From the NCBI GenBank assembly GCA_929200175.1, contig CAKMYR010000003.1, positions 1 through 33,902 of the forward strand: a DNA stretch of 33,902 bases. The letters are read 5' to 3'. Both the position numbers and the translations under genes were made by a program. The DNA is from an uncultured Gammaproteobacteria bacterium (GTDB taxonomy: Bacteria; Pseudomonadota; Gammaproteobacteria; PS1; Pseudothioglobaceae). Within the stretch, counting starts at the first letter, position 1. The number at the start of each line of letters is the position of its first letter. The notes beneath the pieces were generated by a model. The model searched no databases. It was not told the DNA's origin and saw only the letters and a list, made by a program, of their open reading frames with translations. This document shows, piece by piece, positions 4,751 to 32,965 of the stretch.

Positions 4751-5517
4751 AATGAAAATAACTTTTTGAAATTATTAGTAGTTGTGTTTGCTATGCTTTG
4801 AATACTAGTTTCTCTTATTTCTGCTAATTTTTCTACAACATAATAGCTATATGCAGGAGAATTAGCTTTCCCACGATAAGGTGTTGGAGTTAAATAAGGG
4901 GCGTCGGTTTCTACTAACAATCTATCTTCTGGGATTTTTTTTGCAACTTCACGCAAGCTTTGAGCGCTTTTAAAGGTGATAACTCCAGAAAAAGAGATAT
5001 AAAACCCTAAATCAAGTGCTGCTTCTGCAGTTTCTAAGTCTTCAGAAAAGCAGTGCATAACTGCCTTTTCGGCTTTCTCATCAATAAGCATTTTTATAAC
5101 ATCTTCTTTGGCATTACGCATGTGAATAATCATAGGCTTGCCAGTATTATTAGATGCTTTAATATGTCTTACAAATCTTTCCTTTTGCCAACTTGCAGTT
5201 TTTTTATCAACATGAAAATAATCTAATCCTGTTTCTCCAATAGCTATAATTTTTTTATGATTAGCTAGTTTAATTAATTCTTCTACAGTAGGGTCTTTAC
5301 AATTTTGTTCAGTAGGATGAACTCCAACAGATGTATAAATCTGAGGATATTTATCAGCCAAACTAAGACACTTACTAAAATCTTCTAAATTAATACAAAC
5401 ACATAAAAATTCAGTAACTGATAAAGTCTTGGCGTGAGCTAACATAGTATCCACACTGCCACCAAAAGCAGATAAATCAACTTTATCAATATGGCAATGG
5501 GAGTCAATTATTTGCAT
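4747..5517 (-). CDS. tatD: TatD-family metal-dependent deoxyribonuclease
   Basis: TIM-barrel metallohydrolase of the TatD/YcfH family; characterised members are DNases. Metal ligands are visible in order: DSHCHID at the N-terminus, GETGLDYF near residue 95, IIHMRNA near 130, MHCFSE near 155 and ETDAPYLTP near 204. At 256 residues it matches the family. In many gammaproteobacteria the YcfH type sits in holB-pilZ operons; here it heads a tatD-rluC-ubiA set with 4-base overlaps. A 52-base gap separates it from the upstream AsmA-like gene. The YcfH and TatD subgroups cannot be separated by eye, so the symbol is a family name. Confidence 0.92.
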   Translation of the reverse strand: MQIIDSHCHIDKVDLSAFGGSVDTMLAHAKTLSVTEFLCVCINLEDFSKCLSLADKYPQIYTSVGVHPTEQNCKDPTVEELIKLANHKKIIAIGETGLDYFHVDKKTASWQKERFVRHIKASNNTGKPMIIHMRNAKEDVIKMLIDEKAEKAVMHCFSEDLETAEAALDLGFYISFSGVITFKSAQSLREVAKKIPEDRLLVETDAPYLTPTPYRGKANSPAYSYYVVEKLAEIRETSIQSIANTTTNNFKKLFSL

Positions 5518-5569
5518 TAAAAATTAAAATTTATCTAACAATTATTTATTAAGCATATAGATAAAACTA

Positions 5570-6322
5570 CTAAATTCCTAATTTTTCTAGTAAATTTTTG
5601 CCTTTTTCTTTTATCTTATCTACATCAATTTCTTGCTTAACTTTATCAACATCAATACTTTTTTTTATTTTATTAATAGATTCTTTGATTTTATTTTTTC
5701 CTTTTAAAGCAGTACTTTTATTTAGTGCTGTTTTTATATTACTAAATAACGTCTTAACTATTTCATAGCCAATTTCACTTGACTTAATTCCATCATCTCC
5801 ACCAAAATCAGTAAGGCTGATATCTGGCACTTTAATCGTAGTTTTTAATAATTTAGTGTCAATTTTTAACTTAATATTATTAATAACAAATTTCTTAATT
5901 TTTATATTTTTTTCTCTACTTTTAGTTTCTTCATTTGATTCTTTTTCTGTTTCTATATTATCAATCAAATTATTCAAATTAAATCCACTACTTCCTTGCT
6001 CTAAAATAAATTTAATATCTTCGAATCTAACTTCATTTATAACAATGATGTCACTTTTAATATCTCCAAGTTCTAAATAAAAATTATCTAATGTAAAGGC
6101 ATTTTCATTATTAAAATTAGGTGGATTTTTTACTGTAATAGACTTAATGCTAGCATTTTTACCTAAAAAATTAGCACTAAAGTCATCAACTGTAACTTTA
6201 GTATCTAGTAATTCAGAAGCTTGACTTTCAATATATTTTTTTGCCAATATATCAGTTGCAAAAATAATAGTTAAAAATATAGCTATTATTAACCCTAATA
6301 ATGAATAAATTATTTTTTTCAT
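5570..6322 (-). CDS. AsmA-like membrane-anchored protein, function unknown
   Basis: A 250-residue protein with one N-terminal hydrophobic segment (residues ~4-24, IIYSLLGLIIAIFLTIIFATDILA), probably an uncleaved anchor with the rest in the periplasm. Residues ~35-130 (VTVDDFSANFLGKNASIKSITVKNPPNF, then LELGDIKSDIIVINEVRFEDIKFI) resemble the repeating beta-strands of AsmA/DUF748-type proteins, which handle outer-membrane lipids or assembly. The C-terminal ~60 residues are Lys-rich and probably helical, with a small duplication, IDVDKVK then IDVDKIK. It begins 2 bases after rsmG, so it is co-transcribed with mnmG-rsmG. The AsmA relation is inferred from pattern only; no catalytic motif is seen. 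Confidence 0.75.
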   Translation of the reverse strand: MKKIIYSLLGLIIAIFLTIIFATDILAKKYIESQASELLDTKVTVDDFSANFLGKNASIKSITVKNPPNFNNENAFTLDNFYLELGDIKSDIIVINEVRFEDIKFILEQGSSGFNLNNLIDNIETEKESNEETKSREKNIKIKKFVINNIKLKIDTKLLKTTIKVPDISLTDFGGDDGIKSSEIGYEIVKTLFSNIKTALNKSTALKGKNKIKESINKIKKSIDVDKVKQEIDVDKIKEKGKNLLEKLGI

Positions 6323-6324
6323 AG

Positions 6325-6933
6325 TTATTTGTTTATTTCTAACAAGAATCTACTGTATAAATTATCAAATGTAAAAAGTTTATGTATTTTTGTTTGATCG
6401 GGCATTGATTCTTTTTTAAAATTATCTCCTTTCATTAATAAGTATTTACCATTATCACATAATAAATGATTGGTAAGTTTTAATGTATCTTCAACAGAAG
6501 CAAAAGCTCTTGACAAAACTTGCCCAAAACAAAAGTCTGGGTAATAATTTTCTACTCTATTATTGACAATATTGACATTATACAAGTTTAAATGCGCTTT
6601 GACAAAAATCATAAAATTACACTTCTTAGCAGAACTATCAATTGCAGTAATAGCTAAATCTGGTTTAATAATAGCAATAATAAAACTTGGCAATCCTGCT
6701 CCACTACCAACATCTATAAGTTTTTTATCATTAATATAATTGATAATTGATATACTGTCTAGTAAATGTTTTTTTGCAATTAAATCAGGCTCTGTAATAG
6801 CCGTTAAATTATATGTATTATTCCATTTAATTAATAGTTGCAAATAATTTAATAATTTTTTTATTTGTTCTGAATTTAATTCAATATTAATTTGTTTTGA
6901 ACCAGACCATAATATTTGCTCAACACTATCCAT
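6325..6933 (-). CDS. rsmG: 16S rRNA (guanine527-N7)-methyltransferase RsmG
   Basis: S-adenosylmethionine-dependent methyltransferase modifying G527 of 16S rRNA. The SAM site is LIDVGSGAGLPSFIIAI, followed by the acidic strand end AITAIDSSAKK. The motif KWNNTYNLTAITEPDLIAKKHLLDS is characteristic of RsmG/GidB. Length (202) is typical. It follows mnmG by 15 bases, the widespread gidA-gidB pairing. The usual parA-parB/atp genes do not follow; instead an AsmA-like gene starts 2 bases later. One deviation is S in GLPSF where most relatives have Gly. Confidence 0.96.
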   Translation of the reverse strand: MDSVEQILWSGSKQINIELNSEQIKKLLNYLQLLIKWNNTYNLTAITEPDLIAKKHLLDSISIINYINDKKLIDVGSGAGLPSFIIAIIKPDLAITAIDSSAKKCNFMIFVKAHLNLYNVNIVNNRVENYYPDFCFGQVLSRAFASVEDTLKLTNHLLCDNGKYLLMKGDNFKKESMPDQTKIHKLFTFDNLYSRFLLEINK

Positions 6934-18568: not shown

Positions 18569-19420
18569 TTAATCTTTCTTTAATAAATCCGCTAAAAATA
18601 AAGCTTTTTGATAGCAATATTTTTTATTAGCCCCCGTAATTTTAGCTGCCATTCTAGCAGATTTTGATACAGTTGTTTCAGTTAATAAAATTTTTAATAT
18701 TTTATCAACTTTTTCTTTGTCATTATCTTGATTATTTTTATCAATTGCTGATATTAAAACTACGAATTCACCTTTTTGATTAAGTTTATCTTCTTGTAAA
18801 TAATCAATTAATTTTGGTAATGTTGTGGTTTTAATAACTTCAAATGTTTTAGTTAATTCTTTAGCTAAACATACAATGCGCTCCATCCCTAATACTTCTT
18901 CTAAATCCTTAAAGCAAGATAATATGCGTTTTGGTGATTCATAAAAAATAGCTGTTTGAGTAGTATTTGCTATACTTTTTATAACCTTTAAACGAGCTAT
19001 GTGCTTGGAAGGGAAAAAACCAAAAAAACTAAAACTGTTAGTGGCTAAACCTGATACTGATAATGCTGCAATGACTGAGCTTGCACCAACAATTGGAGAT
19101 ACTTTAATACTATGTTGTTTAGCTCTAGTAACTAATAAATATCCAGGATCACTAATAAGAGGAGTGCCAGCATCGCTAATTAATGCTATATTATTACCTT
19201 TTAATATTTTGTTTATAATTTCATTTGTTTTATCTATTTCATTATGTTCATGTAAACAACGCATTGGAGTTTTGATATTATAATTATTCAATAATAATTT
19301 AGAATGAAGTTTATTTTCTGCATAAATTATATTTACCATATTTAAAGTTTTAATTGCCCTTAAGGTAATATCATCTAAGTTTCCAATTGGGGTTGCTACA
19401 ATATAAAGAGTTCCGTACAT
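18569..19420 (-). CDS. rsmI: 16S rRNA (cytidine1402-2'-O)-methyltransferase RsmI
   Basis: Methylates the ribose of C1402 in the ribosomal P site. Family signatures are GTLYIVATPIGNLDDITLRAI, ISDAGTPLISDPGY, SPIVGASSVIAALSVSGL, FYESPKRI and KGEFVVLI. The track extends to a TTG at 19447, giving nine extra residues (MPIFLLKLN) that do not match the family; I choose the ATG at 19420, giving 283 residues. That ATG shares CATG with the divergent yraN start. Neither start has a Shine-Dalgarno sequence. The tlpA-like and ferredoxin genes follow in the same direction. Confidence 0.95.
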   Translation of the reverse strand: MYGTLYIVATPIGNLDDITLRAIKTLNMVNIIYAENKLHSKLLLNNYNIKTPMRCLHEHNEIDKTNEIINKILKGNNIALISDAGTPLISDPGYLLVTRAKQHSIKVSPIVGASSVIAALSVSGLATNSFSFFGFFPSKHIARLKVIKSIANTTQTAIFYESPKRILSCFKDLEEVLGMERIVCLAKELTKTFEVIKTTTLPKLIDYLQEDKLNQKGEFVVLISAIDKNNQDNDKEKVDKILKILLTETTVSKSARMAAKITGANKKYCYQKALFLADLLKKD

Positions 19421-19787
19421 GTTTAGTTTTAAAAGAAAAATAGGCAATCAAGCAGAAAAAATTGCACTTAAATACCTGCTTAAAAATGGTTTTTTACTCA
19501 TACAACAAAATTATCTAACAAAATTAGGTGAAATAGATATTATTATGCTTGATAAAAAAGAAAAAACATTGGTTTTTGTCGAAGTTCGTTATCGAAAAGA
19601 TAATGAATTGATTGAATCTATTGAAACAGTCAATAAAAATAAACAAAATAAAATTATTCGTACCGCTAATTTTTATATCCTAAAAAATAAAAAATATCAA
19701 AGTTTAGCAGTAAGATTTGATATAATCGGGATTGAATCTAATTTAAAAAAACCTAAAATAAAATGGATAAAAAATGCTTTTTCATAA
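19419..19787 (+). CDS. yraN: YraN family (UPF0102) putative endonuclease-like protein
   Basis: A 122-residue member of UPF0102, which has a restriction-endonuclease-like fold. QAEKIALKYLLKNGF is the family start; GEIDIIMLDKKEKTLVFVEVRYR carries the E-D...E-x-K/R-type residues of that fold. Its biological role is not established. In E. coli the order is rsmI, divergent lpoA-yraN-diaA-dolP; here yraN directly faces rsmI with the two ATGs overlapping by two bases, and lpoA and diaA are absent. A TATAAA 11 bases before the ATG would give a very short leader. The 3' end overlaps dolP by 25 bases. Confidence 0.92.
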   Translation: MFSFKRKIGNQAEKIALKYLLKNGFLLIQQNYLTKLGEIDIIMLDKKEKTLVFVEVRYRKDNELIESIETVNKNKQNKIIRTANFYILKNKKYQSLAVRFDIIGIESNLKKPKIKWIKNAFS

Positions 19788-29585: not shown

Positions 29586-30826
29586 TTTTTTTGTCTTAAA
29601 ATTTTAAGTTTTTCAGCTATTTTAATTTCTAAACCTCGATTTGTTGGTAAATAATATTGTTGTTCAGATAACTCATCAGGGAAATATTTTTGCCCTTTGG
29701 CTAAAGCATTTGGTTCATTATGCGAATAAATATAACCTTTTCCATAATCTAAATTTTTCATCAAATCAGTAGGAGCATTACACAAATGTTTCGGCACTGA
29801 TAAATGAGAAGTCTTTTTAGCATCTTCCATCGCTTTATTAAATGCGTTATAAACTGCATTAGATTTTGGTGCCACTGCACAATAAACTGCAGCCTGTGCT
29901 ATAGCACGATTACCTTCTTTTGCCCCAACTCGCTCAAATATATCCCAAGCATTTAAAGTAATCTCTAAAGCTCTAGGGTCAGCATTACCAATATCTTCTG
30001 AAGCAATAGCGAGCAATCTTCTAGCAATAACTTTAATATCACAGCCTCCTAATAACATTCTTGCCATCCAATATAAAGCCCCGTCTGGAGAAGAGCCTCT
30101 TACTGATTTATGAAAAGCCGAAAGTTGTTGGTAAAAAATATCTCCCCCTTTATCAAAAACACTAAGTTTTTCTTGTAATATTTTTTTAATATTAGCTAAA
30201 CTAACTACTTTTAAATTAACCAGTGCTATTTGCTCTACGATATTTATTAACCTTCTAGCATCACCATTACTAGTATTTATTATTTGTAATTTAATATTTT
30301 TATCTTTAATCTTTATATTCTTATAATCTAAGGCTTTATCTAGGATTTTTTCTAGTTCTAAAACACTTAATGAATTTAATACATAAATACTAAAGCGTGA
30401 TAACAATGCTCCATTTATTTCAAATGAAGGGTTTTGGGTAGTAGCCCCTATTACAGTTATTAAACCAGACTCCATATATGGTAAAAAAGCATCTTGTTGA
30501 GTTTTATTAAAACCATGAATTTCATCTATAAATAAGACAGTTTGTTGTCCAGAGGTTTGAAATTTTTTAGCTTTTTCAATAATAATTCTAAACTCTTTTA
30601 TACCCTCTAAAGCAGTATTCATATATGCAAAATATCCATTTACTTGACTTGCAATAATCCTTGCTAATGTTGTTTTGCCAGTACCAGGAGGACCCCATAA
30701 AATCATTGAATGTAATTTATTATTTACAATAGCCTGTTTAAGAGGATGATTGTTATTTAAAAGCTCGGATTGACCAAAAAAATCATCTAAGTTTTGTGGT
30801 CTTAAAATTTCTGCAAGTGGTTTCAT
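29582..30826 (-). CDS. rarA: Replication-associated recombination protein A (AAA+ ATPase)
   Basis: Clamp-loader-like AAA+ protein of the RarA/MgsA/WRNIP1 family acting at stalled replication forks. Walker A GPPGTGKT (45-52), Walker B FIDEIHGFN (~98), sensor 1 region IGATTQNPSFEINGALLSR, and the C-terminal HKSVRGSSPDGALYWMARML and ASEDIGNADPRAL are all typical. Length 414 versus 447 in E. coli. In many gammaproteobacteria it lies in lolA-rarA-crcB-serS; here crcB is retained downstream but apbE lies upstream, overlapping by 4 bases. Confidence 0.96.
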   Translation of the reverse strand: MKPLAEILRPQNLDDFFGQSELLNNNHPLKQAIVNNKLHSMILWGPPGTGKTTLARIIASQVNGYFAYMNTALEGIKEFRIIIEKAKKFQTSGQQTVLFIDEIHGFNKTQQDAFLPYMESGLITVIGATTQNPSFEINGALLSRFSIYVLNSLSVLELEKILDKALDYKNIKIKDKNIKLQIINTSNGDARRLINIVEQIALVNLKVVSLANIKKILQEKLSVFDKGGDIFYQQLSAFHKSVRGSSPDGALYWMARMLLGGCDIKVIARRLLAIASEDIGNADPRALEITLNAWDIFERVGAKEGNRAIAQAAVYCAVAPKSNAVYNAFNKAMEDAKKTSHLSVPKHLCNAPTDLMKNLDYGKGYIYSHNEPNALAKGQKYFPDELSEQQYYLPTNRGLEIKIAEKLKILRQKK

Positions 30827-31764
30827 AAATTAATCTTTAATACTTTAAAATGATTTTTTTCGTCCAATATAAATAATACAGATAAATTTAATCTTTTAGC
30901 TAAAATAGCAGCTTTTTGATACCCCATAGCTAAAATAGCTGTAGCATAAGCATCTGCAAGCATATTACTATTATGAATAACACTTACAGAAGATAAATCT
31001 GTTTTTGCTGGTAATCCATTATTTGGATTTAGTATGTGCGCATACTTTTTACCATCCCAAATAAAATAATTACGATAATCACCCGAAGTAGCTATGGTCT
31101 TATTTTTTAAATTTATATTGATTGGATTGCCAAAATTTAAAAATTCAACTCCAATTTTCCAGTCTTTGCCATAAGCTGCAACCTCACCTCCAATCTCTAC
31201 TATAAACTTATTTACTCCTTTTTTTAATAAAAATTTCACAATTTCATCAACAGCATAACCTTTAGCAATAGCTGATAAATTTATATGTATATCTTTTAAT
31301 TTTCTCACTTTTTTATCTGCTAATTGCAAGTTTTTAATCGAAGACAACTCTAAGGATTTTATTATTTGGTTTTTATTCGGCTTATCATTTACTTTATTAC
31401 TACCAAAGCCCCATATATCAATTAATCTACCAATACCAGGATCAAAAAAACCTTTTGTTTGTTTGTAAATTTGCTTTGAATTATGCAAAACAAAAAACAT
31501 ATCATCTGAAATATCTATCCATTCATTTATAGGCGCATTGTTAAGTTTTGATATCTCTGAATTTTTATCCCAATTGGAAAATATACTATTTATTTTAAGA
31601 AGTCTATTCTCAATATCTAATTTTTCAAGTTTAATATCAATAGTTTGAATAGAATAATTTGTCCCCATAGTTTTTCCTTTAATATAATAAGACTTTTCAC
31701 TATAATCTTGAAAAATTGAAAATATTAATATTAAAACTACTTTAAAAGCTATAATCGTATACAT
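30823..31764 (-). CDS. apbE: FAD:protein FMN transferase ApbE
   Basis: Covalently attaches FMN to threonine residues of redox proteins such as Na+-NQR or Rnf subunits. Blocks: KGKTMGTNYSIQ, NLSAIAKGYAVDEIV, VEIGGEVAAYGKDWKIGVE, YFIWDGKKYAHILNPNNGLPAK and MLADAYATAILAMG. The track's 382-residue version includes 69 residues antisense to the transglycosylase gene; I start at the ATG at 31764, giving 313 residues with an N-terminal hydrophobic anchor (IIAFKVVLILIFSIF). No lipobox cysteine follows, unlike many ApbE lipoproteins. The start shares CATG with the divergent gene, and TATAAA lies 7 bases upstream. Confidence 0.94.
   Translation of the reverse strand: MYTIIAFKVVLILIFSIFQDYSEKSYYIKGKTMGTNYSIQTIDIKLEKLDIENRLLKINSIFSNWDKNSEISKLNNAPINEWIDISDDMFFVLHNSKQIYKQTKGFFDPGIGRLIDIWGFGSNKVNDKPNKNQIIKSLELSSIKNLQLADKKVRKLKDIHINLSAIAKGYAVDEIVKFLLKKGVNKFIVEIGGEVAAYGKDWKIGVEFLNFGNPININLKNKTIATSGDYRNYFIWDGKKYAHILNPNNGLPAKTDLSSVSVIHNSNMLADAYATAILAMGYQKAAILAKRLNLSVLFILDEKNHFKVLKINL
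31750..31755 (+). promoter_or_regulatory. -10 element for the lytic transglycosylase gene
   Basis: Consensus TATAAT on the plus strand with exactly 7 bases (CGTATAC) to the ATG at 31763, which predicts transcription starting at or one base before the start codon, so a leaderless mRNA. No good -35 is seen. It lies inside the apbE coding region. Confidence 0.5.
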
Positions 31765-32965
31765 GCTAAAATTTATATTGTGTTTATTATTTACAGCGTT
31801 ATTTTCTTTGCATGCAAATAATACCAAAGTATTAAATTTACAACCAAGTTTCAATGATTTATTACTAAAAATAAGAACCGAAGCCTTAAGTAAAGGAATA
31901 TCTGAAAAAACAATAGATGAAGCCTTAAATAATATAGTTATAGATGAAAAAGTATTAGAAAACTTTCTCAACCAAGCTGAATTTATTCTTAATTTCTGGA
32001 GTTACACAAATTCAAGAGTAAATGATTATCGCATAACAAAAGGTAAAGAGGCCTGGCTAGAAAACAAAGAAATACTAAAAAAAATATTTGATGAATACGG
32101 CGTTAATCCTGCCATTTTAGTAGCTTTTTGGGGCTTAGAAACTAATTACAGCAGAAATTTTGGCAACTTAAATGCAATTAGATCTTTAGTAACTCTTAGT
32201 TTTAATCAGCGTAGAAGTGAATTTTTCTTTAATGAATTAATAATCTTATTAAAACTAATTGACGAAGGGAAAATACCGCTTGAAGTAAAAGGCTCATGGG
32301 CTGGAGCATTAGGCAGTATGCAATTTTTACCTAGCAATATCATGCAATATGGTATTGATAAAAATAACGACAATAAAATAGATTTATGGAATAACAAAGA
32401 AGATATTTTTGCTAGTGCTTCTAATTTTTTACTATCTATTGGCTGGAATAAAGGAGAACGTTGGGGAAGAGAAGTAACAATACCAAAAAAATTTGACTAT
32501 AAATTATCTGGTTTAAAAATTAAAAAATCTATTAATGAGTGGAGTCTTATAGGCATAAAAAATGCAAAAGGCGAAGATCTACCAAAATCAGAAATAAAAG
32601 CCTCATTACTAATGCCAATGGGACATAAAGGGCCTGCTTTTTTAGTATATAACAATTTTCACACTATTTTAAAATGGAATAATTCAATTTTATATGCATT
32701 ATCAGTTGGATATTTATCTGATATTTTAATTAATTCAGTTAAATTAACCTCCAAGCCTATAATTGAACCATCTTTAAGTAAAGAAGATGTTCTTTTTATC
32801 CAAACTAAGCTTAATCATCTAGGATTTGACTCTGGCGAGCCAGATGGCATATCAGGCCCAAAAACTCGTGGCGCAACTAGATCTTATCAAAAAAATAATA
32901 ATTTGCCAGTTGATGGCTATGTAGGTTATGAATTATTACAAAGATTTAAAAATTTGGAACAATAA
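31763..32965 (+). CDS. mltB: MltB-family lytic murein transglycosylase with peptidoglycan-binding domain
   Basis: Cleaves peptidoglycan glycan strands with formation of 1,6-anhydroMurNAc. A signal peptide (MLKFILCLLFTALFSLHA) sends it to the periplasm; no lipobox is seen. The SLT domain has the catalytic E126 in AFWGLETNYSRNFG, then SFNQRRSEFFFNELI and WAGALGSMQFLPSN. Residues ~345-400 (FIQTKLNHLGFDSGEPDGISGPKTRGATRSYQ) are a PG_binding_1 domain, absent from E. coli MltB but common in relatives. Total 400 residues. The ruvX ATG overlaps its TAA by one base. Confidence 0.94.
   Translation: MLKFILCLLFTALFSLHANNTKVLNLQPSFNDLLLKIRTEALSKGISEKTIDEALNNIVIDEKVLENFLNQAEFILNFWSYTNSRVNDYRITKGKEAWLENKEILKKIFDEYGVNPAILVAFWGLETNYSRNFGNLNAIRSLVTLSFNQRRSEFFFNELIILLKLIDEGKIPLEVKGSWAGALGSMQFLPSNIMQYGIDKNNDNKIDLWNNKEDIFASASNFLLSIGWNKGERWGREVTIPKKFDYKLSGLKIKKSINEWSLIGIKNAKGEDLPKSEIKASLLMPMGHKGPAFLVYNNFHTILKWNNSILYALSVGYLSDILINSVKLTSKPIIEPSLSKEDVLFIQTKLNHLGFDSGEPDGISGPKTRGATRSYQKNNNLPVDGYVGYELLQRFKNLEQ
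31772..31777 (-). promoter_or_regulatory. -10 element for apbE
   Basis: Minus-strand TATAAA with exactly 7 bases to the apbE ATG at 31764, mirroring the divergent gene's element. It again predicts a leaderless transcript. It lies inside the transglycosylase coding region. Confidence 0.45.

Follow-up and report, generated by a model that had tools for sequence, protein, structure and literature searches.

How are two genes transcribed when their start codons overlap head to head? In the 33,902-nucleotide stretch of DNA analyzed here (the window), apbE and a gene for an MltB-type lytic transglycosylase diverge from a common CATG at 31762-31765, which contributes to both start codons (Table 1). 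A first-pass annotation had noted this sharing, together with a TATAAT and a TATAAA that each lie 7 bases from one of the two ATGs, and all of these letters are indeed present. It had inferred that both transcripts would begin at or next to their own start codons and that initiation at one promoter would exclude initiation at the other. For apbE, no other plausible ATG or GTG start lies in frame near the N-terminus, and the gene is followed on the same (minus) strand by rarA/mgsA and then crcB. In the window sequence, there is no Shine-Dalgarno-like stretch ahead of either ATG, as annotated, but this absence is unremarkable because about 78% of the ATG genes here lack such a stretch (present in 151 of 680 genes, with a shuffled mean of 60, according to a crude 4-mer test). 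As a side aspect, the signal-like N-terminus of ApbE in the window (31690-31764, minus strand) does not end in a lipobox cysteine, a residue that is present (as LSAC, LSGC, or similar) in nearly all relatives.

Table 1. Observed and predicted features of the apbE/mltB junction (window coordinates).
Feature	Position	Strand	Basis or remark
mltB-type lytic transglycosylase gene	31763..32965	+	SLT_2 and PG_binding_1 (Pfam), relatives, junction conservation; predicted leaderless, without Shine-Dalgarno
apbE (FMN transferase family)	30823..31764, ATG 31764-31762	-	PF02424, E 1e-76 (Pfam)
TATAAT, predicted -10 element of mltB	31750-31755	+	spacer CGTATAC (7) before ATG 31763-31765
TATAAA near apbE start	31777-31772	-	spacer TTTTAGC (7) before ATG 31764-31762
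TTTGGTATTAT, predicted apbE promoter with extended -10 (TG-G-TATTAT), inside mltB	31828-31818	-	-10 score, synonymous conservation
Predicted overlap of mltB and apbE mRNA 5'-ends, ~49 nt	31763..31811		from the two predicted promoters

Relatives were collected by searching whole genomes and a named genome collection with mltB and apbE. They comprise Thioglobus, SUP05, Ruthia/Ruthturnera, Vesicomyosocius, thiotrophic Bathymodiolus symbionts, and PS1 (Thioglobaceae), and most of them retain the divergent gene order, in which no more than about 15 bases separate the two ATGs. The mltB side was compared in 60 distinct junctions, which are related sequences rather than independent trials; for the apbE side, the 50 junctions in which the start of apbE had been assigned were used. 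Genome-wide counts were made with a simple custom ORF caller on the 53 largest contigs of the source genome (G000, 817 kb) and on 800 kb of G021.

On the mltB side, TATAAT is found in 59 of the 60 junctions and TATAAC in one. The spacer to the ATG is 6 bases long in 58 junctions and 7 in two, namely the window and a MAG locus (L016/L099), and all 60 junctions thus carry a hexamer within one mismatch of TATAAT at one of these two distances. The columns from -12 to -7 are identical at 97-100%, those from -26 to -13 at 32-82%. The hexamer is kept regardless of whether apbE begins at +1 or +13, so that it lies in apbE codons, begins at -13 or -15, so that it lies outside the gene, or is missing from the junction (9 PS1 genomes). 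As these three contexts have no codon constraint in common, the DNA itself is conserved. A Shine-Dalgarno sequence is not visible in the junctions of the relatives either. With the last base of the -10 element 6 bases before the ATG, position +1 falls on the A of the start codon, and the 7-base spacer of the window would place the start of the mltB RNA at C31762 or, one base further, at the purine A31763. Judged by this conservation, mltB is very probably leaderless. A consensus scan gave no -35/-10 pair at either ATG, and the conservation columns showed no -35 element on either side.

This arrangement fits the signature of the TA-led leaderless bacterial genes, in which a -10-like TANNNT precedes the start codon by about 10-12 bases and a Shine-Dalgarno sequence is absent (Zheng et al., 2011, PMC3160421). 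To this known kind, mltB would add a single gene whose promoter is kept throughout a family of Gammaproteobacteria and whose -10 element lies in or next to the opposite gene.

The strongest peak of synonymous conservation within mltB (z up to 6.3) lies at codons 17-25, which read GGTATCAT on the minus strand, with TTTGGTATTAT in the window. Among 40 sequences, GGTATCAT is fixed at 95-100%, most flanking columns at 40-80%. In 40 of the 50 junctions, a TATCAT or TATTAT at a distance of 50-68 bases from the apbE ATG outscores all other -10 candidates within 100 bases; outside PS1, the exceptions L016 and L060 have different -10-like hexamers, 51 and 56 bases away. In TTTGGTATTAT, the hexamer is preceded, one base away, by a TG, which is the pattern of an extended -10 element. 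In the samples of the two genomes, GGTAT[ACT]AT is enriched in the regions ahead of genes relative to coding DNA, about 4-fold in G000 and 6-12-fold in G021, and TATCAT without the GG showed no such enrichment. Because of the conservation, the top -10 score, and the enrichment upstream of genes, we place the apbE promoter at TTTGGTATTAT. It is probably a minus-strand extended -10 promoter inside mltB, from which the RNA would start at about 31811 with a leader of about 47 nt.

It could instead be that mltB is leaderless and that apbE, with no dedicated promoter at either place, is weakly expressed from -10-like sites dispersed over the antisense strand of the A+T-rich mltB. GGTATCAT would then owe its conservation to something else, for example the mature N-terminus of MltB or the site of an mltB regulator. 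In agreement with this, the motif encodes a conserved (N/D)-D-T of MltB, there is no -35 element, and the PS1 clade has apbE at this place without the element. GGTATCAT is missing throughout the PS1 clade, even in the roughly nine genomes with apbE beside mltB, and a link between the element and apbE expression therefore cannot be separated from ancestry. Individual PS1 loci with apbE opposite mltB and without GGTATCAT are L109, L110, L112, L113, L115, L116, L121, and L129. However, the conservation of GGTATCAT is at the level of codons and not merely of amino acids, with ACC mostly followed by C whatever the next residue is. The element also changes its position within MltB between lineages, and the encoded amino acids move along with it. 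Furthermore, GGTATCAT is not palindromic, unlike most sites of dimeric regulators, and its GG makes it similar to the promoter -10 elements of these genomes. We regard an apbE gene without a dedicated promoter as unlikely.

The annotated view that both genes are leaderless by virtue of mirror-image -10 elements, with mutually exclusive initiation, fares worse. Both hexamers and spacings do exist in the window, and TATAAA also occurs 7 bases before the apbE ATG in two relatives, L126 (apbE start at +1) and L094 (+13). Across the relatives, the position of the apbE start codon varies by lineage (-13, -15, +1, or +13 relative to the A of the mltB ATG), and TATAAT was found 6-8 bases before it in none of the 50 junctions; the window and these two loci are the only three of the 50 with a hexamer within one mismatch at 7 bases. 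The hexamer is thus not conserved in the other 47 junctions, and a better -10 element is conserved elsewhere. Sigma-70 favors a T as the final base of the -10 element. TATAAA does not have this T, and it scored 2.1 in comparison to 4.2 for TATTAT with generic -10 weights. Within MltB, 31777-31772 encodes Phe-Ile of the signal peptide, and TTT accounts for 0.93 of the Phe codons and ATA for 0.35 of the Ile codons. TTT-ATA is consequently expected about one time in three given the MltB protein, and the symmetry in a single genome is therefore weak evidence. The mirror hexamer is probably a coincidence of the Phe-Ile codons, and we rejected it as the -10 element of apbE for its non-conservation in the relatives; there is little chance that two leaderless, mutually exclusive transcripts arise here. 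The check proposed in the first-pass annotation, conservation of both hexamers and spacings in relatives beyond what the codons require, thus clearly favors the mltB hexamer, with a family spacing of 6 instead of 7, but not that of apbE, and of the two leaderless transcripts only that of mltB is supported.

Each half of the mirror pattern is, by itself, uncommon but not rare. In the 817 kb of the source genome, TATAAT stands 6 or 7 bases before 8 of 138 divergent ATG starts, and TATAAT or TATAAA before 10 of 138; of 71 divergent pairs, 3 have starts with an exact -2 overlap. The window holds another CATG shared by head-to-head genes, at 19419-19420, between an RsmI-type methylase gene (18569-19420, minus strand) and a UPF0102 gene (19419-19787, plus strand), with no TATAAT 6-9 bases before either ATG. 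The third CATG pair (L066; G000 contig C4) consists of 4925-5716 on the minus strand and 5715-6491 on the plus strand and has TATAAT 8 bases before the minus-strand ATG; its ortholog in G021 has GGTATAAT at a larger distance. The minus-strand protein of this pair begins with MLPIDPTLNIAIKAARKAG and is inositol-monophosphatase-like (SuhB) by eye.

In the sampled source genome, TATAAT before the ATGs of first genes peaks at distances of 6-9 bases, with 16 of 279 starts in comparison to 16 across 21 other spacings. This peak points to a minority of leaderless or nearly leaderless genes in the source genome. TATAAT 5-8 bases before any ATG was not above the reversed control across the genome (174 vs 248), because coding sequence swamps the signal, and the analysis restricted to gene starts is the useful one. 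Among the other genes with TATAAT near the ATG and a comparable start in G021, only two retain the hexamer; as most of these genes lose it, mltB is unusually conserved. In the sense direction, GTATAAT is strongly over-represented upstream of genes in the samples of G000 and G021 (about 10 per 10 kb vs 0.2-0.8 in coding DNA), which suggests that promoters in Thioglobaceae usually include a G at -13.

That neither hexamer matters and A+T richness alone makes the pattern is hardly conceivable and, for mltB, already contradicted: the A+T content of 70% here does make single hexamers common, but TATAAT is exact 6 or 7 bases before the ATG in 59 of 60 junctions with variable flanks, including non-coding and apbE-less contexts.

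Bacterial bidirectional promoters can share one symmetric -10 element, with start sites on either side of it or within it that are typically 7-25 bp apart (Warman et al.; PMC12825309, PMC10268837). The locus resembles these promoters in that two opposite transcripts would arise from closely spaced elements. However, the candidate -10 elements are separate, at 31750-31755 and 31818-31823 (or 31772-31777), the predicted start sites lie between them, and the RNAs would overlap. A symmetric -10 element is available in many relatives as the palindrome ATTATAAT, which is absent from the window. We rejected it as a shared promoter, since its minus-strand start would fall inside apbE past the ATG and it therefore cannot give a full apbE mRNA. 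Overlapping mRNA pairs, or excludons (PMC10349824), are comparable insofar as the divergent coding transcripts are predicted, from conserved promoter-like elements, to be complementary at their 5'-ends, whereas the predicted overlap is short here. In the literature, we found nothing on promoters or leaderless genes in Thioglobus.

In the model that we favor, mltB and apbE are read from two promoters that point toward each other, with the shared start codons between them. The mltB RNA would arise from TATAAT and start at the ATG or one base before it, giving a leaderless mRNA, while the apbE RNA would arise from TTTGGTATTAT, within the part of mltB that encodes the region where the signal peptide ends. 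This would leave the first ~49 nt of each RNA complementary to those of the other. Taken together, a leaderless mltB, an apbE transcribed from the embedded extended -10 element, and a coincidental TATAAA form a picture that we consider fairly probable on the basis of the comparative data.

With the apbE promoter at 31828-31818, the polymerase footprints would cover about 31723-31783 and 31791-31851 (taking -40 to +20). As these do not overlap, a strict mutual exclusion of initiation, which had been annotated for this junction, is not expected. Interference, if any, may possibly occur by collision or by antisense pairing. A more far-reaching proposal is that the two genes form a family-conserved 5'-5' antisense pair, in which the leader of the apbE-rarA-crcB mRNA would cover the very 5'-end of the leaderless mltB mRNA, its ribosome entry site, the two transcripts would mutually tune translation or elongation, and codon-level selection would maintain both embedded promoters. 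We hold this to be rather improbable.

In Gammaproteobacteria, leadered mRNAs are the textbook rule, and mltB would provide a clean comparative case of leaderless expression in a family of this class. The locus would also hold two promoters that lie inside or run against coding sequence, one of which would be maintained by selection at synonymous sites. At the same time, it illustrates that a symmetry which looks striking in a single A+T-rich genome can turn out half genuine, half coincidental.
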